A DNA stretch of 37,779 nucleotides from an uncultured Oscillospiraceae bacterium (lineage in GTDB: Bacteria; Bacillota; Clostridia; Oscillospirales; Oscillospiraceae): contig CANQBA010000040.1 in the NCBI GenBank assembly GCA_947589545.1, forward strand, positions 1 to 37,779. The letters are read 5' to 3'. Under the pieces are notes generated by a model. That model ran no database searches. It worked only from the letters and a program-made list of their open reading frames with translations, and was not told the DNA's origin. Made by a program: the position numbers and the translations under genes. Shown in pieces: positions 11,663 through 34,767 of this stretch (its first letter is position 1; each line of letters opens with the position of its first letter).

Positions 11663-11663
11663 A

Positions 11664-11951: not shown

Positions 11952-11953
11952 CT

Positions 11954-13165: not shown

Positions 13166-13421
13166 TTTTACCTCGACTTTTTTGTTCTTTTGGTGAGTGA
13201 CTCATAAACAATTTCAATACAGCATATCCGAAAATCAATATTATTAAATTTGATGAGAACCAAAAGAGCAGATATGTTTGCATAAAACTAAAATTATTCG
13301 CACAACCTGGCTGTACATCGTTATTCAAAACACCGTACAATGCTATAATAGAAACGATACACGACAAAACACCAGCGATTATAGTCACCCATAAAGCCAA
13401 TTTATTATACCACGTTTTCAT
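13152..13421 (-). CDS. Two-span membrane protein inside the type I RM operon
   Basis: An 89-residue protein with two hydrophobic segments (WVTIIAGVLSCIVSIIALYGV, about 11-31, and YLLFWFSSNLIILIFGYAVL, about 50-69) and a basic tail (PKEQKSRGKNAKH). Both termini are predicted cytoplasmic. It lies 10 bp after the coiled-coil membrane protein gene and overlaps hsdS, so the operon makes two membrane proteins between its M and S genes. No family recognised. It could be a partner of the 344-residue protein, for instance in a membrane-acting defence module. Confidence 0.65.
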   Translation of the reverse strand: MKTWYNKLALWVTIIAGVLSCIVSIIALYGVLNNDVQPGCANNFSFMQTYLLFWFSSNLIILIFGYAVLKLFMSHSPKEQKSRGKNAKH

Positions 13422-13431
13422 TGTGCCGCTC

Positions 13432-14466: not shown

Positions 14467-14482
14467 AATTATTTCCTTTGCT

Positions 14483-15985
14483 TTACAACCCCAATTCTTT
14501 CAAATATTTTTCCATTTCTGCGGTGGTTTTGGACAGTTCGGCGGTTAGTTCGGCGATGCGTTTGCGGGTTGCCGGAATGTCCACTGGTGCTTCTTCTTCG
14601 AATGTATCAACATAGCGTGGAATATTCAGATTGAAATCGTTTTCCTTGATTTCATCAAATGTCGCCACGTGTGAATATTTTTCAATTTCACTGCGTTTTT
14701 TATATGTATCCACGATTTTTGCAATATTTTCGTCCGACAATGTATTTTGATTCTTGCCGGCTGTAAATTCACGGCTGGCATCTATGAACAAAACCTCTTT
14801 GCGATTTTCATTTTTGCCACCTGGCTCACGACTTCTGTCGAAAATCAACACCGCAACCGGGATACCAGTTGTCTGAAACAGTCCCGACGGCAGGCCAATA
14901 ACCGCATCCAGGATATTTTCTTGTATCAACGCCTGACGAATGCGACCTTCGGACGACCCACGAAACAGCACACCATGCGGAACAATCACTGCAACGCGTC
15001 CTTCTTTGGCTTTGGCCGTTTCAACCATGTGGGATATAAAGGCATAGTCGCCTTTGCTGGCCGGCGGCATGCCGCGCCAGAAACGATTGTATTTATCATT
15101 TTCCAGCGATTTATCGCCCCATTTATCCAATGAAAATGGCGGATTGGCAACCACAACATCAAATTTCATCAATCCATTACCATCACGCAGCAACGGATTG
15201 TTTAATGTGTCACCCCATTCAATACGCGCAGAATCCAGTCCATGCAAAAACATATTCATACGCGCCAAATTGTATGTTGCGCCCGTCTTTTCCTGACCAT
15301 AAAGTGCATAATCTTTGGATCCTGTTTTTTCTATCTCGGCACCGGCCAGTAATAACAACCCACCAGAACCACATGTTGGGTCACATATTCTGTTACCAGG
15401 TTTAGGGTCCGCTAATTTTGCAACTAATTTACACAATGTACGTGGGCTGAAAAATTCTCCTGCTTTCTTGCCAGCCTCGGTTCCAAAGCGTTCAATCATG
15501 TACATATATGCATTTCCAAGAATATCATCATCTACTTCGCTTAAATCTACTTTGTTAAAATCGTTTAACAAGTCGCGTATCATTTTATTACGTTGGGCTG
15601 TTGGTCCAAGAATCGGCTGTGAATTAAAATCCACTGTAAATATATCGTGCAATTTTCCATCGTTGGCATCTTCAATCTGTTGTAAAGCAACATTTAATAT
15701 TTCACCAATATTATCTGCTGATTGTTGGGCGTACACATCATAAAAACTTGCTCCGTCTGGCATTACAAATCGGGCGTTTTTTAAGCGCATTTCTATACGA
15801 TCTTTATCATTACCATAACGTTCGACTAATTTTGCCCGTTCAACCCGATGCATATCAGACATATATTTATAGAACAACAATGTCAAAACATAATCTTTGA
15901 AAACACCGCCATCTACTGTCCCACGCGCGGAATCTGCCGCCGCCCACAATATCTTATTTAAGTCATCTTGAGTAATTTTAGCCAT
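14483..15985 (-). CDS. hsdM: Type I modification methyltransferase subunit (HsdM)
   Basis: A 500-residue N6-adenine methylase subunit. The N-terminal HsdM helical domain (ILWAAADSARGTVDGGVFKD) is followed by FFSPRTLCKLVA, AdoMet motif DPTCGSGGLLLLAG (about 200-213), catalytic motif NPPFSLDKWG (about 279-288), and VPHGVLFRG. With HsdS it forms the modification enzyme; with HsdR also the restriction complex. It overlaps the upstream half-size hsdS gene by 8 bp. Length and motifs are normal. The C-terminal coiled-coil helix (TAELSKTTAEMEKYLKELG) probably contacts the S subunit. Confidence 0.95.
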   Translation of the reverse strand: MAKITQDDLNKILWAAADSARGTVDGGVFKDYVLTLLFYKYMSDMHRVERAKLVERYGNDKDRIEMRLKNARFVMPDGASFYDVYAQQSADNIGEILNVALQQIEDANDGKLHDIFTVDFNSQPILGPTAQRNKMIRDLLNDFNKVDLSEVDDDILGNAYMYMIERFGTEAGKKAGEFFSPRTLCKLVAKLADPKPGNRICDPTCGSGGLLLLAGAEIEKTGSKDYALYGQEKTGATYNLARMNMFLHGLDSARIEWGDTLNNPLLRDGNGLMKFDVVVANPPFSLDKWGDKSLENDKYNRFWRGMPPASKGDYAFISHMVETAKAKEGRVAVIVPHGVLFRGSSEGRIRQALIQENILDAVIGLPSGLFQTTGIPVAVLIFDRSREPGGKNENRKEVLFIDASREFTAGKNQNTLSDENIAKIVDTYKKRSEIEKYSHVATFDEIKENDFNLNIPRYVDTFEEEAPVDIPATRKRIAELTAELSKTTAEMEKYLKELGL

Positions 15986-16541
15986 CTATTGCCCCTTTGA
16001 TTATTTGATTTATTAAACTTTGGTTTTGATTTTGTATTTCTAAAACAATATTTTTGCATCGTTGTGATACATCTAACGCCTTTGATAACAAATCTTGTTT
16101 TTTTCTTGAAATTACTGGTATTTCTAATTCTTGTATCCGCTTAATAGTTATAGCAGGCACGGTCATTGATTCTTGTTTTGTCATAATCTGACGCTGTCCG
16201 ATATCAGAATTGATATATAGTGCAAGATATTCTGGTGTTATATCAGAATTAGGCTGCAACATAACGACAAATACCCCACTGGTTGTAATTGCCTTAAACT
16301 GTTCATTAAAAACACATGCACAAAACACACCTCTATTGGTTACAAGTACCGAACCACGTTCCAAAATATGACGCTCGGAAACATGGGCAGACTTGATGTG
16401 AACAAAATCACCACCAAAGCCAGAGATCACATCCTTTGGTTGAATTACGGCTAACTTCCCATCTGCATCGTCTAAAATAGAGCTGCGAAAGGCGTACCCT
16501 GACTTTATTGTAGAAAAAGATCCTAACTTTTTATTTTCCAT
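15978..16541 (-). CDS. Half-size type I specificity protein (one recognition domain)
   Basis: 187 residues: a single TRD (LGSFSTIKSGYAFRSSILDD, later VLVTNRGVFCACVF and ITPEYLALYINSDIGQRQIM) and one conserved helix (ISRKKQDLLSKALDVSQRCK...NQSLINQIIKGA). It is half the length of a normal HsdS. Half-S proteins can dimerise to specify palindromic bipartite sites; that is family knowledge. It is the first gene of the operon, overlapping hsdM by 8 bp, while a full HsdS is encoded downstream. The promoter -10 lies seven bases before the ATG and there is no ribosome-binding site, so its mRNA is probably leaderless. Confidence 0.82.
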   Translation of the reverse strand: MENKKLGSFSTIKSGYAFRSSILDDADGKLAVIQPKDVISGFGGDFVHIKSAHVSERHILERGSVLVTNRGVFCACVFNEQFKAITTSGVFVVMLQPNSDITPEYLALYINSDIGQRQIMTKQESMTVPAITIKRIQELEIPVISRKKQDLLSKALDVSQRCKNIVLEIQNQNQSLINQIIKGAIDG

Positions 16542-16795: not shown

Positions 16796-17166
16796 CTAAA
16801 AATGTATAAAGACTACAAAAATAACTGTTGCATCTACAAACAATTTTGCTTGATAAGCAGCAAGCGTTATTCTTGTTGAACCCAATACATGAGAATCACT
16901 GGCAATATTGCGCATTTCAGAAACAGAGGACACGATTTTGTTTAATCCAGACAATAAATCCTTAATTCGTCTGTCTATATCTTTATTCCGATGCATATTA
17001 TATAATGCTTTAAATTGATCATAAAGCTGAACCACATTACCATTCTTAGGTGCATTTTGCCCTCGTTTTTCAATCGCCCATATTAAAGCTTCCTCTAAGT
17101 CTGTTCTGGCTTTTGTTATCGCACTGTCATAATAAGAAGCTTTAGTAAATTCGTATGCTTTAGACA
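16796..17166 (-). CDS. Abi-C-like (abortive infection C-terminal domain) protein
   Basis: A 123-residue protein. The end, LLSGLNKIVSSVSEMRNIAS followed by DSH, resembles the Abi C-terminal domain found at the tail of AbiJ-like and other defence proteins, where RN-x(n)-H is the conserved core. The frame is open to 17320, but that part runs through a tRNA-like scar and a terminator, so the internal ATG at 17166 is the better start; no ribosome-binding site is evident. Only the tail domain is present, so this may be a truncated gene or a small stand-alone version. It follows the type I operon's promoter region and has its own transcript. Confidence 0.5.
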
Positions 17167-17240
17167 TGGTATTATTTATATAATTTTTGTTTATGTTTAC
17201 ATGTTTTTTTATTAAATCGTTAGTGTTTTTATGGAGCATA

Positions 17241-17272
17241 AAAGAACATCTCGCGGAAACTCCACGAGATGT
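17241..17272 (-). terminator. Terminator next to a tRNA-like scar
   Basis: On the minus strand ACATCTCG pairs with CGAGATGT, extended by three more pairs across one mismatch, and a T-rich tract follows. Layout and sequence (shared AAAAGAACATC on the plus strand) match the tRNA-Ser terminator at 37660-37695. Confidence 0.55.
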
Positions 17273-17282
17273 ATAAATTTCC

Positions 17283-17312
17283 TGGCGGAGTTGTAAGATT
17301 TGACGGTGTTGG
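17283..17312 (-). pseudogene. Possible decayed tRNA 3' end
   Basis: Minus-strand sequence ends TCCGCCA at 17283, preceded by a CAAATCTTAC stretch resembling a decayed T-arm. The terminator begins 10 bp further on; in the intact tRNA-Ser at 37704 the equivalent gap is 8 bp. Only seven to eight bases match exactly, so this is tentative. Confidence 0.3.
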
Positions 17313-17391
17313 ATATCCAATATCTCAAAAATAAAATGGGAAATAATGGGAATTTTGCATCATTTTTAGAGTGCAAATTTTATGCATAAAC

Positions 17392-17506: not shown

Positions 17507-17681
17507 TAAAACATACCCTTGAACAACCTATAACAAACGAACCATTACGATAGTGTCTTGGCCGCAGTATTCATGCAGGTTCTGCATCATCTGATTTTGA
17601 TATCTTGAACATCACGAAACCTTTATTCTTCCCTTATAATAGTACCAAAGCAAATGATCAAAACCATTTTTGCTTATCTTG

Positions 17682-18365
17682 TTACCTGCTTTTTTTATAA
17701 TTTTCTCTATCGTTTCCGAATATACCGCATAGTCTTCCAGTTCTTGCTTTTTTTACATCAATTCCATAGTAATCGATATACAGTGGTAATGCGTTTTTTA
17801 ATATTGAGTCATATATCGAGTAATTGTCTTGCTCTTTCTTGCCCTCGAACAGATAAAAGCATGCATAGTGACAGAACTTGCTTGCAAACGACTTGTTTTC
17901 CCTGGGCCTTATGGTTGCACTGGTTTTCCTTGCTATTATTTCTACCAGTTTATATTTCGTGTCATGTGGGTCTTGTAGATAATGTAGTAGTTTTTCTAGT
18001 GGAATCCTGCATATTCTTTCTGTTATTTCATCACGTCCAACACCGTCTGCGTTCAGATGTGTGGAATTATCTCGATCTACAGCTATCACAGCATTTGCTA
18101 TGATGTTCTTATATATTTTTCTGTCCGTCATGTTTTTTTTAATGTAATCCCTTAACTGACACATCCAATATGCTGTTGAACCACCTTTGCCATTCTTGTC
18201 CGGCCCATACTCTTTGTTGCCGGAGTTTAAGTATGCAGCATCATTTTGAATCATAGCCTCAACCCTGGCCACATTCTTTTGGGTTATTTTTACAAGTCCC
18301 TTATTTTCTATGGTCTTGAGCATATATTTTTTTGCTATTTCTAGTTCATTTCCGATCTTATTCAT
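17682..18365 (-). CDS. Unknown protein divergent from the PLD-helicase gene
   Basis: A 227-residue soluble, basic protein. Recognisable patches are KITQKNVARVEAMIQND, a central ICRIPLEKLLHYLQDPHDTK, and SFASKFCHYACFYLF followed by YSIYDSILKNALPLYIDYYG. I recognise similar unnamed proteins from gut bacteria but no characterised family. The frame is open from a TTG at 18392; AAAGG six bases before the ATG at 18365 makes that the better start. It is transcribed away from the helicase-methylase pair across a shared 164-bp intergenic region, so common regulation or a role in that restriction system is possible, unproven. Confidence 0.6.
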   Translation of the reverse strand: MNKIGNELEIAKKYMLKTIENKGLVKITQKNVARVEAMIQNDAAYLNSGNKEYGPDKNGKGGSTAYWMCQLRDYIKKNMTDRKIYKNIIANAVIAVDRDNSTHLNADGVGRDEITERICRIPLEKLLHYLQDPHDTKYKLVEIIARKTSATIRPRENKSFASKFCHYACFYLFEGKKEQDNYSIYDSILKNALPLYIDYYGIDVKKARTGRLCGIFGNDRENYKKSR

Positions 18366-18529
18366 TGATTGCCTTTCCATTGATTGTGCCAATTATAATT
18401 CTTCATAGGAATAAAAGCAATCTGTATCAAGATTGTTTTTTGCTCATTTTTCTTATAAAAGTCTGGAATTTTTTCCATTCAATGGTATAGTAAAAAGGAT
18501 ATTTAATTCTAGACACAAATGGATATGAT

Positions 18530-21500
18530 ATGGCCGACACTGATTTCCGATTTTTCACGAATACTGATAGGGATTCTCTGCTTTCTCGATTTCAAACGAC
18601 ATTAAAAGATGCACGGTATTTTGATGTCCTGGTCGGGTATTTGCGTGCCAGTGGTTTTAACAATCTGTACAAGGCTTTTACTAAAATTGAAAAAATGAGG
18701 GTTTTGGTTGGTCTAAGTGCTGACCGTCAGGTTGTTTCCTTAGTCGAAGAATCTAATCCCCAGGGGCAACTAAGGTTGTCACGCCATGATTTGAAGCAAA
18801 ATTGTGCGGAGCATGTCAAAAAGGAATTTGAGAATTGCGAGGATTCCCCCGAAACCGAAGACTCTGTTGCCTCTTTGCGACAGATGATTAAGGACGGCAA
18901 ACTTGAAATTCGTGCGTTCCCAGAGCGGAACATTCATGCCAAGGTATATATCACCCGTTTCCCTGATGACGATCGTGATTTTGGCAGTGTCATTACTGGA
19001 TCTAGCAATTTTAGTGAAAACGGGTTAAAGGCAAACCATGAATTCAATGTTGAATTAAAAGATACGCCGGATGTAAAATTTGCCCTGGAACGCTTTGAGC
19101 AACTTTGGGAGCAAAGTGACGATATTACCAGTGAATACATCGATACAATCGACACGCAGACATGGCTAAACCCCAATATTACACCTTACGAAATCTATCT
19201 GAAGTTCCTGTACGAATATTTCAAGGAGGAAATCAATTTCGATAAGGAAGGTGGCTTTATGTTGCCAGATGGCTTTATGGAATTGGAATACCAGAAACAG
19301 GCTGTTACAGCGGCTAAAAAGATCCTGAATGCATATAACGGTGTATTCCTTGCGGACGTTGTTGGTTTAGGAAAAACATATATTACTGCGCTATTGTTGC
19401 AACAAATGCCTGCCGAACGTAAACTGATTATTTGCCCACCTGTCTTGATGGATGGTTGGAAGGCTGCTATTCGGGATTTTCGTGTTGGCGGTGCGGTCGT
19501 GGAATCTCTGGGCAAGCTGGATAAAATTGAAAAACAGGCTGAAAACTACGATATTATCGTGATTGACGAAGCCCACCGTTTCCGCAATGAAGTTACATTT
19601 GGCTTTGAAAAGCTACAGCAAATCTGTCAGGGCAAAAAGGTTGTTCTGGTTTCTGCTACGCCAATCAACAATAAATTTGATGATTTACTTTCCCTGATCA
19701 AGTTGTTTCAGCCAGTGAAACGCAGCACCATCCCTGGTGTAGTCAACTTGGAAGAATTCTTTAAGAGACAGTCTAGAAAACTAAATGGTCTGCAAAAAGG
19801 CACGCCTGAATATCGTGCTGCTGTTTCTGCTGCCTCTGCACAAATCAGAAACAAAGTTCTATCTCATCTTATGGTTCGCCGCACTAGAACCGAGATCAAA
19901 AAATACTTTGATAAAGACATTAAAAATCAGGGACTTCATTTCCCAGAAGCGGCCGATCCACGTCGTATTATTTACCAGTTTGATGAGCAGATCGACAATG
20001 TCTTTAATCAGACAATCGATTTGTTAAAGGAATTTTCATATTCCCGTTATACGCCACTGCTTTTCTTAAAGGAAAAACTTAGTGATTTTGCCGCACAACG
20101 TCAAAAGAATATTGGTGGCTTTATGAAGGGCATCCTTGTAAAACGTCTGGAAAGTAGTTTCTATGCATTTAAGCAGTCAACTGACAGGTTTGTCTTATCT
20201 TATGAACGCTTTATTGACATGTTCCAAAAAGGAACTGTGTACATCAGCAACAAGGTGAATGTTTATGACCTGCTGGACAACGACCAGGAAGACAAGCTCT
20301 TGAAGCTGGTTGAGGATGAAAAGGCGGAGATGTATTCTTCCGATCAGTTTAATGATGATTTTCTACCGGCTCTGCGAAGTGATCTGACCATACTGAGACA
20401 TATCCAAAAGTTATGGAAAGAGATTGATCAAGACCCAAAAGCGGATGAGTTTGTCCGCATGCTGAAAAAGGACAAGGACCTTGCCGGTAAGAAAGTTATC
20501 GTCTTTACGGAATCCAAGGAAACATCCGACATTGTGTACAAACGCCTGGCCAAGGAATTCAAGGGCCGTGTTATTCGCTATTCTAGTGAGGGTGGCGACT
20601 TTGATGGCCGAACGTTATCTACCGAAGATGCACGCCAGCGCATCAATGAAAACTTTGATCCACGTGAAAAAACACAGTCGGACGACATTGATATTTTGAT
20701 TACCACTGACGTGTTGGCTGAAGGTGTGAATCTGCATCGTTCTAATATCTTGGTCAATTATGATCTGCCTTGGAATCCAACCAGGGTTTTACAGCGTGTC
20801 GGTCGTGTAAATCGTGTTGGTTCATCGTTTGCTGAATACTTTGTCTATAACTGTTTCCCAACATCGGTATCAAATGATCACCTGCATTTAGAAGAAAACA
20901 TTATATCTAAAATCCAGGCATTCCACGATACCCTGGGCGAAGATGCTAAATATCTTTCCGAGGATGAGGAAATTGAAAGTCACGAACTGTCTGGTCGTGG
21001 TGCCAACTTCTATAAGAGATTGAACGATAAAAACGGCTTTGATGATGAAGATGAAAACGCAGAATCTGAACTTAAATACCTGAATATCATTCGTGATGTT
21101 CGTGACAAAGACCCTGCGTTGTTCGATAAAATCAAGCGTTTGCCTAAGAAAGCACGTACTGCATCTGTCAGCAAGAAAATGCCAAATGCTCTGATTAGTT
21201 TCTTCCGCCGTGGTGCTTTGAAAAAGTTTGTGTATTCAGATGCACTTAAATCCGAAGAAATTGATTTTATGACTGCGGCAAAAGCATTTGAATGCGGTAA
21301 AGATCAGGTAAAAAAATCCACTCCTGCAAATTTCTTTGATTTGCTGAAACGCAACAAAGCTTACCTTGATGGCTTGGATGTTGCAGAGGATCTAACCCCT
21401 GTTGCCAACTCCGGCCGTTCTAACGAGGCAAAATTACAAAAGGATGTGATGTTCTTATTGAGAGACACATCTCAGTACACTGAGGAGGACGAGGAATTCC

Positions 21501-21730
21501 TGCGTGAATTGTCTGAAGCTCTTGAAATGGGTTCTGTTCCTAAAAAGACCGTTCAAGAAGCAAAAAAGGCTCTGGATAAACAGAGATACATTTTGCTCGA
21601 GAATATTAAGGCTGTGCATTTCCTAAAATCTTGGTTCTCAAAATGTGTCTATTCGAGAAATAACACAGCCAATTATAATGTAAACGATGCACGTGAAATC
21701 ATCTTGTCAGAATACTTTTATGGGGAATAA
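18530..21730 (+). CDS. PLD nuclease - SNF2 helicase, restriction subunit
   Basis: 1066 residues. The N-terminus is a phospholipase-D-type nuclease half-site: HAKVYI (His135, Lys137) and GSSNFSENG (about 156-164). The SNF2 helicase follows with Walker A LADVVGLGKT (about 270-279), IDEAHRFRNE (about 343), VSATPINN (about 374), an inserted helical region, then lobe 2 with DVLAEGVNLH, NYDLPWNP and RVLQRVGRVNRVG (about 748-760). Three bases separate its stop from the methylase start, so both are co-translated. Together they resemble an ATP-dependent restriction enzyme in which a PLD nuclease replaces PD-(D/E)XK. With one HxK half-site the active nuclease is probably a dimer. The ribosome-binding site is weak. 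Confidence 0.88.
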   Translation: MADTDFRFFTNTDRDSLLSRFQTTLKDARYFDVLVGYLRASGFNNLYKAFTKIEKMRVLVGLSADRQVVSLVEESNPQGQLRLSRHDLKQNCAEHVKKEFENCEDSPETEDSVASLRQMIKDGKLEIRAFPERNIHAKVYITRFPDDDRDFGSVITGSSNFSENGLKANHEFNVELKDTPDVKFALERFEQLWEQSDDITSEYIDTIDTQTWLNPNITPYEIYLKFLYEYFKEEINFDKEGGFMLPDGFMELEYQKQAVTAAKKILNAYNGVFLADVVGLGKTYITALLLQQMPAERKLIICPPVLMDGWKAAIRDFRVGGAVVESLGKLDKIEKQAENYDIIVIDEAHRFRNEVTFGFEKLQQICQGKKVVLVSATPINNKFDDLLSLIKLFQPVKRSTIPGVVNLEEFFKRQSRKLNGLQKGTPEYRAAVSAASAQIRNKVLSHLMVRRTRTEIKKYFDKDIKNQGLHFPEAADPRRIIYQFDEQIDNVFNQTIDLLKEFSYSRYTPLLFLKEKLSDFAAQRQKNIGGFMKGILVKRLESSFYAFKQSTDRFVLSYERFIDMFQKGTVYISNKVNVYDLLDNDQEDKLLKLVEDEKAEMYSSDQFNDDFLPALRSDLTILRHIQKLWKEIDQDPKADEFVRMLKKDKDLAGKKVIVFTESKETSDIVYKRLAKEFKGRVIRYSSEGGDFDGRTLSTEDARQRINENFDPREKTQSDDIDILITTDVLAEGVNLHRSNILVNYDLPWNPTRVLQRVGRVNRVGSSFAEYFVYNCFPTSVSNDHLHLEENIISKIQAFHDTLGEDAKYLSEDEEIESHELSGRGANFYKRLNDKNGFDDEDENAESELKYLNIIRDVRDKDPALFDKIKRLPKKARTASVSKKMPNALISFFRRGALKKFVYSDALKSEEIDFMTAAKAFECGKDQVKKSTPANFFDLLKRNKAYLDGLDVAEDLTPVANSGRSNEAKLQKDVMFLLRDTSQYTEEDEEFLRELSEALEMGSVPKKTVQEAKKALDKQRYILLENIKAVHFLKSWFSKCVYSRNNTANYNVNDAREIILSEYFYGE

Positions 21731-21733
21731 GTT

Positions 21734-24700
21734 ATGAATATAGATGCTGCTAAAAATTTGGTTACCAAGGTTCTGAAGAACGCATACGATGAAGAAAACT
21801 TTCGTGAGTTAGTTCGTAATCTGTTTGACAACTACACCCCTCTTCAGGAACATCCTGTATCTGGTGCTTATATCTGGGACTCTTTCAAGGAGCATATCAT
21901 TTCCTATAAGAGACTGGCAAAATATGAGACGAACGGTCAAACGGTTGATGTCCTAGCAGTCTGTGTTCAGAATGGCAGCAAACTTGAGCATGCACGTACG
22001 ATGCTGCGTAATTTCATATCTAAATATCTGAACGCAGGTCGTGGAGGCAAACTCCGAGATGCGGCCTTGGTTGCGTTCTATGCCCCTGATTCGACCGATT
22101 GGCGGTTGTCTTTGGTCAAGATGGACTATAACTATGACGTAAACAAGCAGAAAATAGAGAATGTCTTTACGCCTGCACGACGTTATTCTTTCCTGGTCGG
22201 AACAAATGAACAGGTTCATACTGCCTGCAAGCAGTTCTTGGATGTTCTTGTTACTGGCGGCAACCCAACCCTGCATGAGTTAGAAAAGATATTCAGTATT
22301 GAAACCGTATCAAATGAGTTCTTTGAAAAGTATAAGGAACTGTTCCTACGTTTGACTGAATCCATCGATGAAATTCGCAAGAAAAACTCTGGGATAAACA
22401 TTGATTTTGAACTAAATAATATATCCACACAGCTTTTCTGTAAAAAACTATTGGGGCAGATTGTTTTCCTTTATTTCCTGCAGAAGAAAGGGTGGCTTGG
22501 CGTTGATAAAGATAAGCTTTGGGGAACTGGCAACAAGCAATTCTTGCGCTCTTTGTTTGATAAAGCTGCTGCGGATGGGAAGAATTATTTTGATGAATAT
22601 CTGGAACACCTATTCTATGAAGCTCTAGCAACAAAACGTCCTGACAGCTATTTTGAACGCTTGGGCTGCCGCATTCCATTCCTGAATGGAGGATTGTTTG
22701 AACCTATCCAGGGCTATAAGTGGGATGAATACAATATCATGATTCCTAACGATATTTTCTCAAATTCCAATCCTACCAAGGAAGGTGATATCGGTGATGG
22801 CATCTTGGATGTTTTTGATCGCTATAATTTCACAGTTCGTGAAGACGAAATGCTGGAAAAGGAAGTTGCTGTTGACCCTGAAATGCTTGGTAAGGTATTT
22901 GAAAACCTGCTTGAAGTCAATGATCGTAAATCCAAGGGTGCGTTCTATACCCCACGTGAAATCGTTCATTTTATGTGCCAAGAATCACTTATAAATTATC
23001 TTTATAACAAGGTTAATTGCGTTCAAAAAGAATTGGCTCAAGACCAACAGCCATCGTTCTGTGTATTCCCGAAACAACAGCTAACACTGGCAGAGGATAT
23101 TTGCGAAGAACGTGTCAGCAAGCAAGCCCTGTCTGACTTTATCCGCTATGGTGATATCTTTCGTGAACATGAACGTGCCTCTGGTAAAAACAATACAGGT
23201 ACGTATGAGCATAAAATTGCCCCAGAAATTAAGAAATACGCAGAGGAAATAGATCAGGCATTGGCGGATGTTCTTGTCTTGGATCCTGCCATTGGTTCCG
23301 GCGCATTCCCTGTGGGCATGATGAATGAGATTGTACGAGCAAGATTAAACCTGCTTGAGTATGGTTATATCTGTTGCGAAGGTGACATTCGCAACTCATA
23401 CACATATAAACGACATGCTATTGAACGTTCGCTGTATGGCGTGGACATAGAAGACTCTGCTGTTGAGATTGCAAAATTGCGTTTCTGGTTGTCTTTGATT
23501 GTTGATGAATACGAACCAAAATCAATCAACCCATTACCAAACTTGGATTATAAAATTCGCTGTGCCAACTCTTTGCTGCGCATCCAGGGGTCTTTATTCA
23601 ATGCCCAAGACATCGTGGATTTGGAACGCTGGAAGGATGAATTTGTACAGGAGTCGGATGGGCGCAAAAAGAAAGGGCTAAAAACAAAAATTGATGACGG
23701 GTTGTCAAAACTTGCAAAGGATGGTGAATTTGATTACAACATCTTCTTCTCTGAAGTTTTCCGCTCTAACGCAGGTTTTGATATTGTCATTGGGAATCCA
23801 CCTTACGTTCAATTGCAAAAAATGAAGAATGATATAATCAAGCGTGGTGTTCATGCTGGCAAATCATTCCAGGATCTCTATCGAGAACAAAATTTCAAGA
23901 CCTATGAGGCTACTGGCGACATATACTGCTTGTTCTATGAAAAAGGGTTATCATTATTGCGCAACCGTGGTGTTCTTTGTTACATAACATCTAGAACGTG
24001 GATGAAGAGTAATTTTGGAGAGCCTCTGAGAGACCTTTTTGTAAAGCACAACCCATTGTTGCTTGTTGACCTTGGTGCTGGTGTTTTCACAACTGCAACT
24101 GTTGATACTAACATACTACTTGTCGAGAAAAAAGGTTATGAAGGGAAAACGCTATCTTGCGACTATAAAGATCGTTCACAAGATATGAGCGTTTATATTC
24201 AACAATATGGCAGCGAGTTGAGTTTTACATCGGATGCTTGGGCGATACTTAACCTGTTGGAACTGTCTATAAAATCCAAAATAGAAAAATACGGAACCCC
24301 ATTAAGAGATTGGGACATATCTATAAACTATGGAATAAAAACAGGTTGTAATGATGCTTTCATTATTGATGGTGCAAAACGAGCAGAACTGATTGCAGCG
24401 GACCCAAAATCTGACGAGATTATACGACCGATTTTGCGTGGCAGGGATATCAAAAGATATGGATATGATTTTGCAGATTTATGGTTGATCAATATTGAAT
24501 GCGGTTCAACAAATGCCAATCGTAGCACCTTAGAACCAGAAGAATATATCAAGACTTCATATCCTGCAATATACGAACATTTTATTGATATTGCAAATAG
24601 ACCAACTAGGGGTAAAGGTCTTAAAGGTCGTGATGATATGGGGGATTACTGGTGGGAGTTGCGTAGTTGTGCATATACGAACGATTTTTCTAAACAAAAA

Positions 24701-25078
24701 ATAGCCTACAGAGAGATAAGCGATGAGATGGGGGCTTGTCTTATTGATGACGAGTATTTCTTAAATAATAAATGTTATATTATAACAGGTAATATAGATC
24801 TCAAACCCCTTGTTGCTTATCTTAATTCAAATTTGTTCACGCAGATTGTTCTACAAATGGTGAACACAACTGGTGGCAAGGGTGCAGATTTTATTGACAA
24901 GTTACACGCCCCAAATCTTACAGCTAATCAAGTCAATAAGCTTAGCACACTCGTTGAACAAATGCAGGTATGTCAATCAAACGTTCTGGATGAACAAATC
25001 GATCAAATAATCTACGAGGCTTTCAATTTATCTTTGGATGAAATTGATTCCCTTAACAAGAGAAAGCGTTCTCAATAA
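21734..25078 (+). CDS. Eco57I-like adenine methyltransferase with invertible C-terminus
   Basis: 1114 residues. An N-terminal domain (about 1-170, containing VDVLAVCVQNGSKLEHARTM) and a helical region precede the methylase core: GAFYTPREIVHFM, AdoMet motif VLDPAIGSGAFPVG (about 514-527), YGVDIEDSAVEIAKLRFWLS, and catalytic IGNPPYVQLQKM (about 685-696). From about residue 810 the TaqI-like target-recognition half follows (TGCNDAFII, ILRGRDIKRYG, YWWELRSCAY). No PD-(D/E)XK motif was seen, so cleavage presumably needs the PLD-helicase. From Met818 on the sequence can be replaced by the 299-residue copy lying inverted downstream (25053-25952). The architecture resembles BREX PglX, but no other BREX gene is present. 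Confidence 0.88.
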   Translation: MNIDAAKNLVTKVLKNAYDEENFRELVRNLFDNYTPLQEHPVSGAYIWDSFKEHIISYKRLAKYETNGQTVDVLAVCVQNGSKLEHARTMLRNFISKYLNAGRGGKLRDAALVAFYAPDSTDWRLSLVKMDYNYDVNKQKIENVFTPARRYSFLVGTNEQVHTACKQFLDVLVTGGNPTLHELEKIFSIETVSNEFFEKYKELFLRLTESIDEIRKKNSGINIDFELNNISTQLFCKKLLGQIVFLYFLQKKGWLGVDKDKLWGTGNKQFLRSLFDKAAADGKNYFDEYLEHLFYEALATKRPDSYFERLGCRIPFLNGGLFEPIQGYKWDEYNIMIPNDIFSNSNPTKEGDIGDGILDVFDRYNFTVREDEMLEKEVAVDPEMLGKVFENLLEVNDRKSKGAFYTPREIVHFMCQESLINYLYNKVNCVQKELAQDQQPSFCVFPKQQLTLAEDICEERVSKQALSDFIRYGDIFREHERASGKNNTGTYEHKIAPEIKKYAEEIDQALADVLVLDPAIGSGAFPVGMMNEIVRARLNLLEYGYICCEGDIRNSYTYKRHAIERSLYGVDIEDSAVEIAKLRFWLSLIVDEYEPKSINPLPNLDYKIRCANSLLRIQGSLFNAQDIVDLERWKDEFVQESDGRKKKGLKTKIDDGLSKLAKDGEFDYNIFFSEVFRSNAGFDIVIGNPPYVQLQKMKNDIIKRGVHAGKSFQDLYREQNFKTYEATGDIYCLFYEKGLSLLRNRGVLCYITSRTWMKSNFGEPLRDLFVKHNPLLLVDLGAGVFTTATVDTNILLVEKKGYEGKTLSCDYKDRSQDMSVYIQQYGSELSFTSDAWAILNLLELSIKSKIEKYGTPLRDWDISINYGIKTGCNDAFIIDGAKRAELIAADPKSDEIIRPILRGRDIKRYGYDFADLWLINIECGSTNANRSTLEPEEYIKTSYPAIYEHFIDIANRPTRGKGLKGRDDMGDYWWELRSCAYTNDFSKQKIAYREISDEMGACLIDDEYFLNNKCYIITGNIDLKPLVAYLNSNLFTQIVLQMVNTTGGKGADFIDKLHAPNLTANQVNKLSTLVEQMQVCQSNVLDEQIDQIIYEAFNLSLDEIDSLNKRKRSQ
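24183..24194 (+). repeat. 12-bp invertase-site candidate, left
   Basis: ATATGAGCGTTT within the methylase gene, spanning codons for Met-Ser-Val (residues 818-820). Its exact reverse complement is at 25943-25954, at the start codon of the silent cassette. Both pairs of repeats (12 bp and 328 bp) have the same midpoint, about 25068.5. Confidence 0.65.
24380..24707 (+). repeat. 328-bp perfect inverted repeat, left arm
   Basis: Read by eye, this segment is base-for-base the reverse complement of 25430-25757. It encodes the conserved middle of the recognition half (from RAELIAADPKSDEI to NDFSKQKIA). Identity stops sharply at both ends, where the two alternatives diverge. Exact identity over 328 bp implies ongoing exchange between the arms. 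Confidence 0.9.
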
Positions 25079-25952
25079 ATGCGATTTCCTCTTCTGTTAG
25101 GTGGTAGGCTTTGTATACAATCTGATCAATTTTAGGTATATAACTTTGGTCATTGTTTTCTATAATCTGGCTTATATAGTCCCTTAGAATTAAGTATAAT
25201 CCTTCATCAAATTCTGGTAAGCTTAACTGCTCGATGTTGTACTTGTAGTGTCTGTAAGCCCCGCCCGACCCAAGCTTTAGATCTTTGCTGTTAATCCAAA
25301 ATGTCAATAATTTTGAGTTTAGGAATGCCAAAAAGTATTCGGGGTGTTCGCAGGCAAAGAAATAATTTGTATCCAGCAAATACATATCTTTGTCTATTAG
25401 TGAATAGTATGTTTCGCCAACACTTGCCCAGGCTATTTTTTGTTTAGAAAAATCGTTCGTATATGCACAACTACGCAACTCCCACCAGTAATCCCCCATA
25501 TCATCACGACCTTTAAGACCTTTACCCCTAGTTGGTCTATTTGCAATATCAATAAAATGTTCGTATATTGCAGGATATGAAGTCTTGATATATTCTTCTG
25601 GTTCTAAGGTGCTACGATTGGCATTTGTTGAACCGCATTCAATATTGATCAACCATAAATCTGCAAAATCATATCCATATCTTTTGATATCCCTGCCACG
25701 CAAAATCGGTCGTATAATCTCGTCAGATTTTGGGTCCGCTGCAATCAGTTCTGCTCGCTTGGCCCCGTCAATTATGAACGCCTCATTGCAGCCAGTAAGG
25801 ACACCACGATAGATATTTATCCCCCATTCTTTTAATGGTGTGCCATATTTTTCAATTTTATCTTTTATAGACTGTTCCACGGTATCTAAAATTGCCCAGG
25901 AGTCCTTTGTAAATTTTATTGGCACTGCATGGTGACTAGTAAAAACGCTCAT
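25053..25952 (-). CDS. Silent alternative C-terminus of the methylase
   Basis: A 299-codon frame, opposite to the methylase and overlapping its last 26 bp. It has no methylase motif. It is a second version of the recognition half, from MSVFTSHHAVPIKFTKDSWA through TGCNEAFIIDG, the shared ILRGRDIKRYG block and a different distal part (WASVGETYYSLIDKDMYLLD, LKLGSGGAYRHYKYNIEQLS). It has no plausible ribosome-binding site and begins exactly at the 12-bp repeat. Inversion there would join it in frame after residue 817, giving 1116 residues. The active version has 297 residues after that point. Best read as a silent cassette. Confidence 0.85.
   Translation of the reverse strand: MSVFTSHHAVPIKFTKDSWAILDTVEQSIKDKIEKYGTPLKEWGINIYRGVLTGCNEAFIIDGAKRAELIAADPKSDEIIRPILRGRDIKRYGYDFADLWLINIECGSTNANRSTLEPEEYIKTSYPAIYEHFIDIANRPTRGKGLKGRDDMGDYWWELRSCAYTNDFSKQKIAWASVGETYYSLIDKDMYLLDTNYFFACEHPEYFLAFLNSKLLTFWINSKDLKLGSGGAYRHYKYNIEQLSLPEFDEGLYLILRDYISQIIENNDQSYIPKIDQIVYKAYHLTEEEIAFIENAFSC
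25430..25757 (-). repeat. 328-bp perfect inverted repeat, right arm
   Basis: Reverse complement of 24380-24707, inside the silent cassette. Confidence 0.9.
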
Positions 25953-25954
25953 AT
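25943..25954 (-). repeat. 12-bp invertase-site candidate, right
   Basis: AAACGCTCATAT on the plus strand, the exact inverse of 24183-24194. It overlaps the cassette's start codon and lies 58 bp before the invertase gene, the usual place for one site of an invertible segment. Confidence 0.65.
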
Positions 25955-26012
25955 ACCGTATCCAATTTTTGTTTATAAAATGTAAGGGCTGTATGAAACA
26001 AAGGAGTCAGTA

Positions 26013-26612
26013 ATGATATACGGCTATATTCGGGTCAGTACCGATAAACAAACTACTGAAAACCAGCGTTTTGAAATCAGTCAATACGTGGATAAAAACA
26101 ACCTGGTTATTGACCAGTGGATCAATGAAACAATCAGTGCGACAAAAGCACTTAGCAAACGTCAACTGGGAAAACTGTTAAAGCGGCTCGAGAAAGGCGA
26201 TATACTAATTGCCTCGGAACTATCCAGGCTTGGTCGTAACCTGCTGCAGGTGATGAGTATTCTTCATTTATGCATGGATAAGGATGTCCAGGTCTGGACC
26301 ATTAAGGACGGTTACCGTCTGGGGGCCGACATCCAATCCAAGGTTCTGGCATTTGCTTTCGGCTTGTCTGCCGAGATTGAGCGTAATCTGATAAGCCAAC
26401 GTACCAAGGAAGCTTTGATGCGTATGAAGGCTGAAGGCAGGATTCTTGGTCGTCCAGTTGGTCGCAAAAATACATATGTCAAACTTAGCGGCAAAGAGAC
26501 CTTGGTTAGGGAATTGCTTAACAATAACATCTCAAAGAGTGGTATTGCTCGTATCACTGGTGTTCACAGGATAACCGTTTCAAAGTTTATTCGTGAGCGT
26601 GTGTCCATTTGA
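26013..26612 (+). CDS. Serine DNA invertase (Hin/Mpi-type)
   Basis: A 199-residue small serine recombinase. The resolvase domain starts IYGYIRVSTDKQTTENQR (catalytic Ser9) and continues with LIASELSRLGRNLLQVM, carrying the conserved Arg residues, then AFGLSAEIERNLISQRTKEAL (helix E). It ends with GRPVGRKN and a Hin-type HTH (ISKSGIARITGVHRITVSKF, about 175-194). The size matches inversion enzymes, not transposon resolvases with large C-termini. AAAGGAG lies seven bases before the ATG. Position beside an inverted duplicate of the methylase end makes this cassette its obvious substrate. Confidence 0.9.
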   Translation: MIYGYIRVSTDKQTTENQRFEISQYVDKNNLVIDQWINETISATKALSKRQLGKLLKRLEKGDILIASELSRLGRNLLQVMSILHLCMDKDVQVWTIKDGYRLGADIQSKVLAFAFGLSAEIERNLISQRTKEALMRMKAEGRILGRPVGRKNTYVKLSGKETLVRELLNNNISKSGIARITGVHRITVSKFIRERVSI

Positions 26613-26692
26613 TATGGTTCATCTGCGATTTTTTAGGGGGGGGATTAGCGGTAATTCAAATGGACGGCTTAGGTCGTCTTTTTCTTTTTTGC

Positions 26693-26716
26693 ACCACCCC
26701 TTTGTGGGTGGTTTTT
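26693..26716 (+). terminator. Intrinsic terminator after the invertase
   Basis: ACCACCC pairs with GGGTGGT around CCTTTGT-like loop bases, followed by TTTTTCTTT. It lies 80 bp after the invertase stop codon and ends the phase-variable block. Confidence 0.8.
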
Positions 26717-27073
26717 CTTTAGGTCATTTTGTGTAAATCTGGATATAGTTCCAAATGGGTATGGTTTAGACTGGTCTGTATTTTACACAGCCGCTACACA
26801 GCAATCAAAAAAACGGCTATTTTTTACATTTTTTAATTCGCTAGAACACGCAGAAATATGCGAAAAAATTGAAATTTTACATCCCTCTGAATCGCAGGTG
26901 CTGTTAAAACCTGTATATTACGATATTTTTACACACAAAACCAACCACTAAATAAGATTTTGTCCAAAAGTAGTAATTTTTGGGTGTTTTCTAGAACCCG
27001 CAGAAATTCGGCGATTTTTTGAACTAACTTTCGTTGCACCTTATATATAGGGGGCAAAGGTCTTTTTTTGACC
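26717..27073. other. Intergenic region upstream of the ParB-methylase gene
   Basis: No gene is supported in these 357 bp. A direct repeat beginning CTAGAACnCGCAGAAAT occurs at 26841-26873 and 26991-27023, both copies ending TTGAA. TTTTACA occurs four times between about 26780 and 26935. Promoter, packaging site or replication-type repeats are all possible; nothing decides between them. Confidence 0.5.
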
Positions 27074-27141: not shown

Positions 27142-28404
27142 ATGCCAAATTTACAAGTTGAAAATATAGACGTTCAAAAATTGAAAATTCATGACAAGAA
27201 TCCAAAACAACACAGCAAGAAACAAATCGGTCAAATAGCACAATCTATCAAGGAGTTCGGATTTGTGTCGCCAATATTGGCAGATGAACAACTCGAAATC
27301 ATTGCCGGTCATGGGCGGTTAGCTGCCGCAAAGATGTTAGGTTTTACACAGGTACCTGTGATAATTTTGTCGCATTTAACAGCACAACAAAAAATCGCGT
27401 ATGCCATAGCTGATAATAAACTTACCGAGTTGGGAACTTGGAATATGGAACTGTTGCAAGATGAGTTTCAATTATTAATGGCGCAAGATTTGGACTTTGA
27501 TATGACGGTAACAGGCTTTGAAACTGGCGATATCGACCTTATTGTCAATCCGGCAAACAAAAACATTGATACAAAAGCGGATACACTACCCGAACTAAAT
27601 GACGCAGATAAGGTATGCCAGAGTGGAGATATTTGGCAACTGGGGCATCACCGCCTTGTTTGTGGTAATTCACTCCATAGATGCACTTATAATTCGTTAT
27701 TTGGCGACAATAAAGCGCAACTTGTCATAGCCGACAGCCCATACAATGTAAAAATAAGCGAAATCGGTTCTATGGGACGTATAAAGCATGATGATTTTCA
27801 AATGGCTTGTGGAGAAATGTCATCCGATGAGTTTGTACAATTTTTAATGTCTGTTATGGAATTAACCAAAGACTATTCCAATGATGGTTCTTTACATTAT
27901 TACTGGATTGACTGGAAACATGTCCGAGAGATGACCAACGCGGGTTCCCAGGTTTATACAGAATTAAAAAATATCTGTATTTGGAACAAATTAACTGGTG
28001 GAATGGGATCTTTATACAGATCACAACATGAAATGTGTTGTGTATTCAAGAAAGGCACAATTGCACATGTAAATAATATAGAACTTGGAAAACACGGCCG
28101 TTACAGAACCAATGTTTGGGATTTTCCAGGGGCCAATCATTGTGCAGAAGGTCGTGAAACCCTTAAAAGCCACCCCACACCCAAACCAGTACAATTAACA
28201 AAAGACATTATCTTAGACGTTACAAAACGTGGCGATATTGTGTTTGATCCTTTTTTAGGTTCTGGCACAACCATATTGGCTGCAGAACAAGCAGGACGTA
28301 TTGGTTATGGAATAGAAATTGAACCCAGATATTGCGACTTAACAATAAAACGATTTGAAAAACTAACTGGTACAAAAGCTACAAAAATAGGAGAAATAAA
28401 ATGA
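27142..28404 (+). CDS. ParB-like nuclease domain fused to adenine methyltransferase
   Basis: 420 residues. The N-terminal part (about 1-130) is a ParB/Srx-like domain: KIHDKNPKQHSKKQIGQIA, FVSPILAD, IAGHGRLAAAKMLG and AYAIADNKLTELGTW. The C-terminal part (about 150-415) is a beta-type methylase with DSPYNVKI as the DPPY-class catalytic motif (Ser for the first Pro) and DPFLGSGTTILAAEQAGR as the AdoMet motif. This fusion is typical of alphaproteobacterial prophages, where it lies next to terminase and modifies phage DNA; chromosome partition is unlikely. A strong AAGGAGG site precedes the ATG. It overlaps the next gene by 4 bp. Confidence 0.9.
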   Translation: MPNLQVENIDVQKLKIHDKNPKQHSKKQIGQIAQSIKEFGFVSPILADEQLEIIAGHGRLAAAKMLGFTQVPVIILSHLTAQQKIAYAIADNKLTELGTWNMELLQDEFQLLMAQDLDFDMTVTGFETGDIDLIVNPANKNIDTKADTLPELNDADKVCQSGDIWQLGHHRLVCGNSLHRCTYNSLFGDNKAQLVIADSPYNVKISEIGSMGRIKHDDFQMACGEMSSDEFVQFLMSVMELTKDYSNDGSLHYYWIDWKHVREMTNAGSQVYTELKNICIWNKLTGGMGSLYRSQHEMCCVFKKGTIAHVNNIELGKHGRYRTNVWDFPGANHCAEGRETLKSHPTPKPVQLTKDIILDVTKRGDIVFDPFLGSGTTILAAEQAGRIGYGIEIEPRYCDLTIKRFEKLTGTKATKIGEIK

Positions 28405-28775
28405 CAGGATATTGTAATCCACCGATTGAAACGCGTTTTAAAAAAGGTCACAAACCTGTTTCTGGTGGGCGACCCCAAAATTCAAAAAATTGGTCAACAA
28501 TTGTTAACAAAGAGCTTAATGAATTAATAACAATAAAAGAAGGTGGAAATACAAAGAAAATAACCAAAAAGCTAGCTGTTTTGAAAAAGTTGTTACAGAA
28601 CGCACTTAATGGGAAATCGGCTGATATTAAAATGGCCTTGGAACTTGCCGATAAGATTGAGAACGATTTATCACGTACTCAATTTGATGATAATGAACAA
28701 AGTAAAATTGATTCAGAAATAATTGAAAATTACAGAAAATCAATTTTACAAGAAAACAAAGAGGTTGAAATATGA
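28401..28775 (+). CDS. DUF5681 protein, possible small-terminase equivalent
   Basis: 124 residues. The first 45 match DUF5681: ETRFKKGHKPVSGGRPQNSK then NWSTIVNKELNELI; a helical region and an acidic C-terminus follow. DUF5681 proteins regularly lie directly upstream of phage large-terminase genes, the position of the small terminase, so a DNA-recognition role in packaging is plausible but unproven. ATGA overlaps join it to the methylase upstream and to terminase downstream (4 bp each), so the three are one transcription and translation unit. Confidence 0.8.
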   Translation: MTGYCNPPIETRFKKGHKPVSGGRPQNSKNWSTIVNKELNELITIKEGGNTKKITKKLAVLKKLLQNALNGKSADIKMALELADKIENDLSRTQFDDNEQSKIDSEIIENYRKSILQENKEVEI

Positions 28776-30205
28776 ATACCGATTTATCAACAGCTTTAAT
28801 AAGGCAAGATTTTTTCAGTTTCTTTCAACGTGCTTTTTATGAAACCAGTGGGGGACAATTTATTGTCCCCGCATGGTATTTTTACGTATTGTGTGATAAA
28901 TTAGAAAAGGTTGGACGTGGTGAAATAAAACGGCTTATTATAAATCTGCCACCAAGAAGTCTAAAATCACAACTTATCAATGTTGCTTTTACTGCGTGGA
29001 CTCTTGCGAAATCACCGAAAAAGAAAATTATAAGTGTTTCTTATTCTGCGGAGCTAGCAGATGAATTTGCACGTGATACGAAACGTATCATGACATCAGA
29101 TTGGTATAAAACGTTATTTCCAAAAAGCCAGATTGCAAATGAGCAATCATCGGCTACAGATTTTAAGACGCATTCCCATGGTGGGCGATTTACAACATCT
29201 GTTGACGGAACTATAACGGGGCGCGGGGGTAATTTGATTGTTATTGACGATCCTATCAATACATCAAATACAACCAGTGAAACTACATTAAACAAAGTCA
29301 ACGAATGGTATAAAAAGACATTGTTAAGTCGTTTGGATAATCAAGAAACCGACAGTATCGTCTTAATGATGCAACGAGTTCACGAAAACGATTTAACCGG
29401 TTATTTATTAGAAAACGAACCAAACAAATGGGACGTTATAAAAATACCACAAATTGCCATAGAAAACGAAACATGGATTGTTGGTAATAAGACTTTTATT
29501 CGTGCCAAGGGGCAAGTTCTAAACCCTAGTTATACTGGTTTAGAAAAGTCTCTTGAATTGAAACAAAGTTTAGGTTCATATGTTTGGGAATCTCAATATC
29601 AACAAAATCCAATAGCAGTTGAAAGCGGTATAATTAAACCAGAATGGCTACACTACGAAGATCAAACAACTTTTGATAGAAATGATGTACGAGAAGTGTA
29701 TTTAAGTTGGGATACCGCAAGCAAAACAGGGGCAGATAATGCATATTCTGCATGTGTGGTTATTGTCATGACCAGAGATAGAAAATTACATCTCGTAGAG
29801 GTGTATCGTGATAAATGGGAAATACCGGATTTAATCAAAGAAACTAAAGATATTTACAATCAATGGGCAAGCAATCTTGGCAATCGAGGACGAATAACTT
29901 TGTTGGTGGAAGAAGCCGCAAGTGGTGTCGCATTAAATCAGTTCTTGGCAGCAGAATATAACAATGGTGGTTCTTATTTTAATACAGTAGCTATAAAACC
30001 ACATGGCGATAAAGCATCTAGATTGATAAATAGTAGTGTTGTCATAGAAAGCGGACGTTTGTTGTTTCCAGCAGAATCACGTAATTTGAATTGGTGGCCT
30101 GAATTCAAGAAAGAATTATTGGGTTTCCCGGGAACAAAATATAAGGATCAGGTTGATGCACTAAGCCAAGTGATAAGGTATATATTGGATGAAGAATCTC
30201 AATAA
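28772..30205 (+). CDS. Phage large terminase subunit (TerL)
   Basis: 477 residues with a complete packaging motor. The ATPase has a Walker A variant LPPRSLKSQ (59-67) and Walker B LIVIDDP (155-161), plus MMQRVHENDLTG as the coupling region. The RNase H-like nuclease has SWDTASKTGADNA (Asp314), VEEAASGV (about 379) and DQVDALSQ (about 459), the three acidic metal ligands. Length is normal and no frameshift is seen. Oddly, no portal, protease or capsid gene follows; the next gene is convergent and unrelated. Either a prophage remnant or a packaging module kept by a satellite-type element. Confidence 0.93.
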   Translation: MNTDLSTALIRQDFFSFFQRAFYETSGGQFIVPAWYFYVLCDKLEKVGRGEIKRLIINLPPRSLKSQLINVAFTAWTLAKSPKKKIISVSYSAELADEFARDTKRIMTSDWYKTLFPKSQIANEQSSATDFKTHSHGGRFTTSVDGTITGRGGNLIVIDDPINTSNTTSETTLNKVNEWYKKTLLSRLDNQETDSIVLMMQRVHENDLTGYLLENEPNKWDVIKIPQIAIENETWIVGNKTFIRAKGQVLNPSYTGLEKSLELKQSLGSYVWESQYQQNPIAVESGIIKPEWLHYEDQTTFDRNDVREVYLSWDTASKTGADNAYSACVVIVMTRDRKLHLVEVYRDKWEIPDLIKETKDIYNQWASNLGNRGRITLLVEEAASGVALNQFLAAEYNNGGSYFNTVAIKPHGDKASRLINSSVVIESGRLLFPAESRNLNWWPEFKKELLGFPGTKYKDQVDALSQVIRYILDEESQ

Positions 30206-34326: not shown

Positions 34327-34767
34327 ATGTCATATAAAGACAACCTGCCTAAGACGATGGATGAGTTAAAAGCACTATCTTTTGATGAACGAGCGCGATT
34401 ATGGGCAAAATACTCACAATATCCATTCAAACGGCAAATGCGGTCGCTTTGGTATTATATTCAATGCGACAGGTTAAATCTTCGAATTGAACATAAATAT
34501 CTAGTAAAAATTCGTAAATATAAGGATAATCCAGAACAATGTTTAGACCATGCGTGCCAAAACAAATATAATTTTGTCCCAGGTACAATTTTAACACGAT
34601 ATTTCAAAGGGATAAAATACACCATCCTAGTCAATGATGATGGCAGTTTTTCTTATAACGGTGATAAATATTCAACTTTATCAGCAGTTGCAACCAAGAT
34701 AGCCGGCATGAAAATGTCTGGTAATTTCTTCTTTGGTATAAACAAAAGGTATAAACATGACAATTAA
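34327..34767 (+). CDS. DUF2924 protein, partner of a large serine recombinase
   Basis: 146 residues. The N-terminal half is helical (TMDELKALSFDERARLWAKY). The C-terminal half is the DUF2924 signature: PGTILTRYFKGIKYTILVND, FSYNGDKYSTLSAVATKIAG and SGNFFFGI. DUF2924 genes are habitually placed directly upstream of large serine recombinases in alphaproteobacterial mobile elements; a role as recombination directionality or accessory factor is possible but unproven. AAAGGAG lies six bases before the ATG, and the gene overlaps the recombinase by 11 bp. Confidence 0.88.
   Translation: MSYKDNLPKTMDELKALSFDERARLWAKYSQYPFKRQMRSLWYYIQCDRLNLRIEHKYLVKIRKYKDNPEQCLDHACQNKYNFVPGTILTRYFKGIKYTILVNDDGSFSYNGDKYSTLSAVATKIAGMKMSGNFFFGINKRYKHDN

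Follow-up and report, generated by a model that had tools for sequence, protein, structure and literature searches.

Changes of DNA recognition by recombination have been described in several settings. In type I systems such as cod/SpnIII of Streptococcus pneumoniae, inverted hsdS specificity genes recombine and the methylation motif changes (PMC4948785, PMC6620402), with PsrA as the pneumococcal hsdS recombinase (PMC11709252). The bacteriophage exclusion (BREX) locus of Lactobacillus rhamnosus contains a pair of full-length and partial PglX genes together with a site-specific integrase, and phase variation is mentioned for it (PMC7513527), while the Mpi invertase of Bacteroides fragilis inverts at least thirteen regions (PMC5903667). 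We analysed a stretch of 37,779 nt from an uncultured Oscillospiraceae bacterium (contig CANQBA010000040.1, hereafter the window; assembly of 3.83 Mb in 148 contigs), in which the gene of an Eco57I-like methylase is followed by an inverted second version of its target recognition domain (TRD) and by an invertase of the Mpi family. We consider it very likely that this locus is an Mpi-driven specificity switch, probably with a second, nested crossover, which would give rise to up to four versions of the enzyme. The parts of the element are listed below with the basis of each assignment in brackets.

18530..21730, plus strand: PLD-nuclease/SNF2 helicase of 1066 residues, likely the restriction effector (Pfam, PADLOC and neighbourhood)
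21734..25078, plus strand: Eco57I-like N6-adenine methyltransferase of 1114 residues with C-terminal TRD (PADLOC, Pfam)
24183..24194, plus strand: site 1, active copy, with the putative crossover at residue 818, MSVYI (exact 12-bp inverted repeat)
24185..24379, plus strand: N module 1, YGIK class (57% identity to N module 2)
24380..24707, plus strand: M module, active copy, a perfect 328-bp inverted repeat (repeat comparison)
24679..24702, plus strand: active copy of a site 2-like sequence at DFSKQKI, GAACGATTTTTCTAAACAAAAAAT (similar to inverted repeats of 24-27 bp in the related loci L035, L112, L154, G446, G447 and G524)
24708..25075, plus strand: C module 1 (aligned part 23% identical to that of C module 2)
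25053..25952, minus strand: silent inverted TRD open reading frame (ORF) of 299 residues, with N module 2 (RGVL class), the same M module and C module 2 (open frame)
25430..25757, minus strand: M module, silent copy, a perfect 328-bp inverted repeat (repeat comparison)
25435..25458, minus strand: silent copy of the site 2-like sequence, mirroring 24679-24702 (deduced from the symmetry centre, 50137)
25943..25954, minus strand: site 1, silent copy (exact 12-bp inverted repeat)
26013..26612, plus strand: Mpi-family serine invertase of 199 residues (NCBIfam NF009949)

The original prediction for this DNA had proposed that the C-terminal end of the methylase has a silent, inverted version with an invertase downstream, and the three open frames at 21734-25078, 25053-25952 and 26013-26612 bear this out. 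The two inverted repeats that it had placed around one common centre, one of 12 bp (ATATGAGCGTTT, 24183-24194/25943-25954) and a perfect one of 328 bp (24380-24707/25430-25757), were recovered at exactly these coordinates, with a coordinate sum of 50137 for both. Its assignment of a Hin/Mpi-type serine invertase agrees with a score above the curated cut-off of the NCBIfam Mpi model NF009949 (317.5 bits, cut-off 272), and its claim that inversion at the 12-bp sites keeps the frame was reproduced in silico, where this inversion gave an open methylase of 1116 residues in place of the present 1114. Inversion at the 328-bp repeat likewise yielded an open 1116-residue methylase, and inversion at both sites one of 1114 residues. 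A wider homologous arm extends over 24258-24707/25430-25879 (450 nt, 92%). Active and silent TRD share 60% identity; the silent frame is open, starts with ATG at site 1 on the minus strand and matches the reading frame of the methylase at residue 818. The exact site-1 12-mer occurs at two places only in the whole assembly, the 13 other matches each having one mismatch, and an exact inverted match of at least 12 outside the homologous arm arose in 5 of 2000 mononucleotide shuffles. As a short read does not span the 328-bp repeat, the pairing of N and C halves in this assembly may be the assembler's choice.

The invertase is intact and lies about 60 bp from the silent arm. Its columns invariant across seven homologues include R7, S9, R72 and R75, presumably the catalytic residues, and the second-best invertase match in the same genome is 34% identical. 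The methylase matched PADLOC REase_MTase_IIG (E 8.9e-276) and exceeded the cut-offs of Pfam Eco57I and TaqI_C. In 43 aligned sequences DPAxGSGA was mostly invariant and NPPY invariant throughout, and we take these motifs, I and IV respectively, to be those of a gamma-class N6A methylase. No nuclease domain was among the Pfam matches of the window methylase; the PLD domain sits in the partner protein, which matched PLDc_2, SNF2-rel_dom and Helicase_C in Pfam as well as HKD+Snf2 in PADLOC (E 1.7e-58) and includes an HAKVY...GSSNF stretch.

In the mechanism that we propose, the Mpi-family invertase would bring together the two site 1 copies, inverted relative to each other (ATGAGCGTTT), and flip the 1.77-kb segment between them, whereby residues 818-1114, the entire TRD, would be replaced in frame by the silent version. 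The catalytic half and the PLD-SNF2 partner would stay as they are and be directed to a different DNA motif. At a second site pair, located at DFSKQKI at the end of the common M module, the C-terminal half of the TRD could be swapped by itself, through the invertase or, in the window locus, through homologous recombination within the 328-bp repeat as well, and the outcome would be up to four enzymes, N1C1, N2C2, N1C2 and N2C1.

The modules were placed by HMMER alignments to CamA and BseCI, the nearest solved relatives by profile (CamA, PDB 7lni/8cxz, E 7e-67; BseCI, 7qw5, E 5e-49), with the positions below counted by hand. Two of the residues that separate the recurrent N classes YGIK and RG(V/I)L align with CamA Gln346 and Ile349, both in contact with the A3:T3 pair; the M module covers Arg425, Gln438, Trp439 and Arg441 of CamA, and the C module Tyr455, Lys456, Ser472, Ala473, Ser514, Ile517 and Tyr521, all of these residues being named as DNA contacts in the accessible part of the CamA paper (PMC8187626). 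Because the module residues align with these contacts, an exchange between N1 and N2 should change one recognised base and an exchange between C1 and C2 the bases beside the target adenine, while the common M module should keep the rest.

Sixteen other loci from several phyla combine an invertase, a methylase and an inverted part of the TRD, which makes 17 with the window (L and G numbers are our handles for these and other loci). A genome scan, of which the best 80 of 541 matching stretches were kept (L033-L112), contributed six loci with an Mpi invertase beside or near the methylase, namely L033, L035 (Melainabacteria), L092 (Endomicrobiaceae), L102 (an alphaproteobacterium), L106 (Treponema berlinense, where genes intervene between methylase and invertase) and L112 (Balneola); these are six of the 57 loci with at least 1.8 kb downstream. 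The others were found on Lactococcus plasmids (L031, L032), in Prevotella nigrescens (L201), on viral contigs (L129, L133 and L154, three of 80 loci found via the invertase) and in Lachnospiraceae genomes (G446, G447, G524, G880). The silent part is a full TRD in most loci; it comprises M and C only in G880 and a C-terminal portion only in L112 and L102, and it runs from the NPPY motif onward in L092, L106 and L201. In the family of G447, two of 397 genomes matched the invertase at E 1e-60, both next to a methylase. Three other genomes with methylase contigs that end early (G448-G450) had no invertase match at E 1e-20. After setting aside six of the 80 genome loci without a single long NPPY frame and eight with less than 2.5 kb upstream, 64 of the 66 counted had a helicase homologue on the same strand upstream, and this conservation marks the helicase-methylase pair, by its gene order, as a stable system.

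The nearest relative listed, L033 (alphaproteobacterium SIG46), shares 17585-24365 and 25774-26720 with the window at 97-98% DNA identity, and its invertase is 100% identical in protein sequence. It retains only part of the silent copy; its cassette (L033:6001-8679) has a junction that forms a 15-bp palindrome, and the missing middle may be a real deletion or an assembly collapse.

Variants of the arrangement were also observed. The Lactococcus plasmids pLLUC147A and pUCCL635A (L207, L208) contain the helicase-methylase pair and a GAGCG site, with no silent copy or invertase in their annotation, and are apparently locked derivatives. In P. nigrescens (L201:9001-17131) and T. berlinense (L106:6010-14061), extra genes lie between the methylase and the silent cassettes; one of those in L201 is annotated as an ATP-binding protein, and L201 also has two partial Eco57I-domain ORFs, perhaps a three-way switch. 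The active methylase frame of L154 is broken within the M module (L154:8049-8203). On nine other viral contigs (L134, L137, L138, L141, L143, L151, L158, L169, L181), Mpi invertases adjoin inverted families of C-terminal repeats of about 80-110 residues, which resemble tail-fibre shufflons and differ in repeat sequence.

Site 1 recurs at the same place in the gene. In nine loci besides the window (L031, L032, L035, L129, L133, L154, G446, G447, G524), the exact inverted arm starts at GAGC or at most 4 bases before it, at codons for [M/L/W]S.[Y/F], with arm lengths from 12 to 297 bp; the site reads GAGCC in L133 and GAGCG in the other eight. GAGC is missing at this position in L042, L094 and L099, which are intact, have this N module and lack an invertase. 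A second inverted repeat of 24-27 bp, GGASGATTTTT..., lies at codons for [ED]DF...KI in L035, L112, L154, G446, G447 and G524, while L133 has 18 bp of it and G880 a divergent repeat of 28 bp; its counterpart in the window, 24679-24702, lies near the end of the 328-bp repeat. When ranked by a site-1 profile built without the locus being ranked, site 2 of ten loci came between 5 of 8490 and 416 of 8518. With the full site-1 profile, the L102 exchange point, itself unrelated, ranked first of 9674, while those of L092 (368 of 9542) and L201 (2650 of 16222) did not stand out; L106 was left out of this scoring. Because of these ranks, sites 1 and 2 and the L102 exchange point likely share a recognition sequence, as judged by profile, the loci whose silent part begins at NPPY excepted. 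A single motif for all Mpi sites was rejected, as the loci with fibre-like repeats have other repeats by eye and L201 fits the site-1 profile poorly.

We were also interested in whether related loci hold their modules in opposite states. Between the Lactococcus plasmids, from strains UCCL629 and JM1, whose invertases are the same protein (WP_021164920.1), the N and M modules of active L031 match those of silent L032 at 93 and 89% identity, and those of silent L031 match active L032 at 97 and 96%, compared with 42-53% between M modules of unlike versions; their four C modules all differ (23-35% over aligned parts). In Lachnospiraceae, one M class unites active G446, active G524 and silent G447 (83-94%), and the other silent G446, silent G524 and active G447 (83-88%); across the opposite states, identity between the modules of G447 and those of G446 and G524 is 83-85%. 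These opposite states are differences between lineages, not within one clone. As a separate observation, the M modules of L035, L129, G446, G447 and G524 fall into two classes, THNG...DTPYNLR and TFPS...KWFETQDS, across distant hosts, with one of each class per pair, whereas the window pair has a single common M. The N class differs between the active and the silent copy in eight of nine pairs (the window, L031, L032, L035, L129, L154, G447 and G524; not G446), a count in which L031 and L032 are related and which does not include L033, L133 or loci whose silent copies are partial. Since both N classes are common in loci without a recognised switch, this discordance is suggestive only.

Further evidence comes from contig ends. 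In G446 and G447 the final base of the methylase contig is also that of the 24-bp site 2, and the contig with the C module, the silent TRD and the invertase opens with the same 77 bases. We infer that an overlap of exactly 77 is a branch left by a graph assembler with k=77, and the contig name NODE_483 is of SPAdes style. A repeat of 24 bp would branch such a graph only if reads supported a second continuation, which points to mixed junctions among the reads. A branch at site 2 is what inversion there predicts, the alternative being a second strain with another C module. Both metagenome-assembled genomes bear the same project name (Lapin), hence they are not independent in method. Two of the eight contigs that end inside the NPPY methylase frame end at this site-2 base, and the assemblies of G524, L035, L112 and L154 run through site 2 unbroken.

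The sequences, the frames, the recurring architecture and sites and the opposite module states of related loci are direct observations; that the invertase acts on these sites, that the window locus inverts and that specificity changes we infer from them. Specificity switching by inversion is well supported, and two-site combinatorial switching is probable. The original prediction of a specificity switch thus gained 16 further loci, opposite states in relatives and assembly breaks at site 2, but it had overlooked the probable second crossover inside the TRD. A broader proposal, to which we give about even weight, is that of a horizontally spread combinatorial mixer, in which one Mpi-type invertase acts on two nested in-gene site pairs, N (with M) and C modules are separately exchangeable into four enzymes, and the stored versions, usually of opposite class at the base-reading loop (YGIK versus RG(V/I)L, at the counterparts of CamA Gln346 and Ile349), are matched alternatives, with some recognised bases in common and others changed, and not random spares.

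A number of observations weigh against the switch. Among the relatives with at least 1.8 kb downstream, 51 of 57 have no invertase, and close invertases are rare in the class (4 of 391 genomes); three of these four class-level Mpi matches have no methylase or TRD match in flanks of about 1.5 kb (only about 100 bp upstream in L119). Five of six plasmid regions around non-Lactococcus Mpi matches show no such switch in their annotation, though in one of the five (L202) a helicase and a methyltransferase lie downstream. GAGCG is present in L065 and in L207/L208, where no invertase was found, the window site 2 is the weakest of the ten in the site-1 profile, and the low rank of the L201 exchange point also counts here. 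The L033 contig is without the middle of the element, and its methylase has only 892 residues. The original prediction had suggested comparing related genomes for the opposite state, which was met in the Lactococcus plasmids and Lachnospiraceae, but not at the window locus in its own genus: the locus itself is absent from all 33 other genomes, one of which (G005) has a partial invertase match only (81% over 134 bp). A scan of viral contigs with one junction pattern found no inverted junction of the window either.

The exchange could instead take place in the 328-bp inverted repeat through RecA-type homologous recombination, with the invertase acting elsewhere or being a passenger. Perfect identity over 328 bp amply suffices for homologous recombination, an inversion there preserves the frame, and an M module identical between diverged flanks points to recent exchange or conversion; several relatives moreover have long site-1 arms of 54-297 bp. 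The N module of the window, however, could not be moved through this repeat, and the exact repeat is only 24-27 bp at site 2 in some relatives and 12-25 bp at site 1 in L031, L032 and G524. As the invertase adjoins the silent copy in several phyla and the genome has no third exact 12-mer, we regard homologous recombination as an improbable sole agent. That the window locus holds a dead switch, its silent TRD being a duplicate in decay, would agree with the truncated methylase on the contig of L033 and with the opposite state missing from the genus genomes and from the viral contigs at the one junction pattern, yet it is a quite improbable reading of a silent frame that is open over all 299 residues and in frame at the crossover, beside an intact invertase conserved without change in L033. 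The silent frame begins with ATG in the window, L035 and G447, as it might if the inverted ORF were expressed separately as a second specificity subunit and were not a silent store; this reading was rejected on the TGG codon at that position in L031, L032, G446 and G524, and with an ORF that lacks the catalytic half it is very improbable. An assembly artefact, for which 148 contigs and a repeat longer than short reads could speak, is hardly credible given that N2 and C2 are unique sequences with open frames of their own and that complete Lactococcus plasmids have the same architecture.

Other features were noted across the window. Five DNA methylase genes lie within its 37.8 kb (3741-5451, 14483-15985, 21734-25078, 27142-28404), one of them a ParB_N-N6_N4_Mtase fusion. 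A type I system at 8495-16541 comprises HsdR, HsdM, a 403-residue HsdS with one Methylase_S match and a separate 187-residue Methylase_S ORF, and no strong repeat was found between the latter two. An AbiJ/Abi_C abortive-infection-like ORF (16796-17320) adjoins the cassette, and a terminase-like ORF and a large serine recombinase (28772-30205 and 34757-36376) suggest a prophage or integrative element beside the switch.

Compared with known systems, the locus resembles invertible hsdS in that inverted specificity parts would recombine into several combinations, but a separate S subunit is switched there and the C-terminal half of a fused methylase in the window. PsrA is a tyrosine recombinase, whereas the window has an Mpi-type serine invertase. 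BREX PglX is similar in that a full-length adenine methylase gene is accompanied by a recombinase and a partial copy; it belongs to the BREX gene set and has an integrase, whereas the window has a PLD-SNF2 partner and no BREX score near a cut-off. BREX membership was rejected (PglX 58.8 bits, cut-off 500), with no PglZ, BrxC or other BREX core gene in a Pfam scan of 29 distinct window ORFs among the 43 listed, as was membership in the defence island system associated with restriction-modification (DISARM; DrmD 145.5 bits, cut-off 610); the phospholipase D-like anti-phage protein NF042964 also stayed below its cut-off (163.5 bits, 1100). The window invertase is in the same NCBIfam Mpi family as that of B. 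fragilis, but its exact site pair is single in the genome, with one copy inside a coding sequence. Type II restriction-modification genes are reportedly predicted as a novel inverted family in the abstract of a survey of gene-altering programmed inversions by Milman et al. in 2023. An Mpi-switched Eco57I-type methylase was not described among the matches listed in our literature search, judged by titles and the openings of abstracts. CamA of Clostridioides difficile and BseCI are the nearest solved relatives of the catalytic half and the TRD, but no switching is described for them in the accessible part of the CamA paper (PMC8187626). The window and its relatives would widen the range of invertible DNA recognition, known from type I S subunits, to include single-chain methylases with a nuclease-helicase partner, in gut and environmental lineages of several phyla, allow a residue-by-residue prediction of which recognised bases should change, and raise the question of how a cell stays alive once recognition shifts to a motif still unmethylated in its own genome. 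Invertible specificity genes are already known from hsdS and PglX; as far as our searches could tell, what is new here is that Mpi is combined with PLD-SNF2 in several phyla, that one site recurs inside the gene with a second site nested within, and that changes of recognition can be predicted residue by residue.

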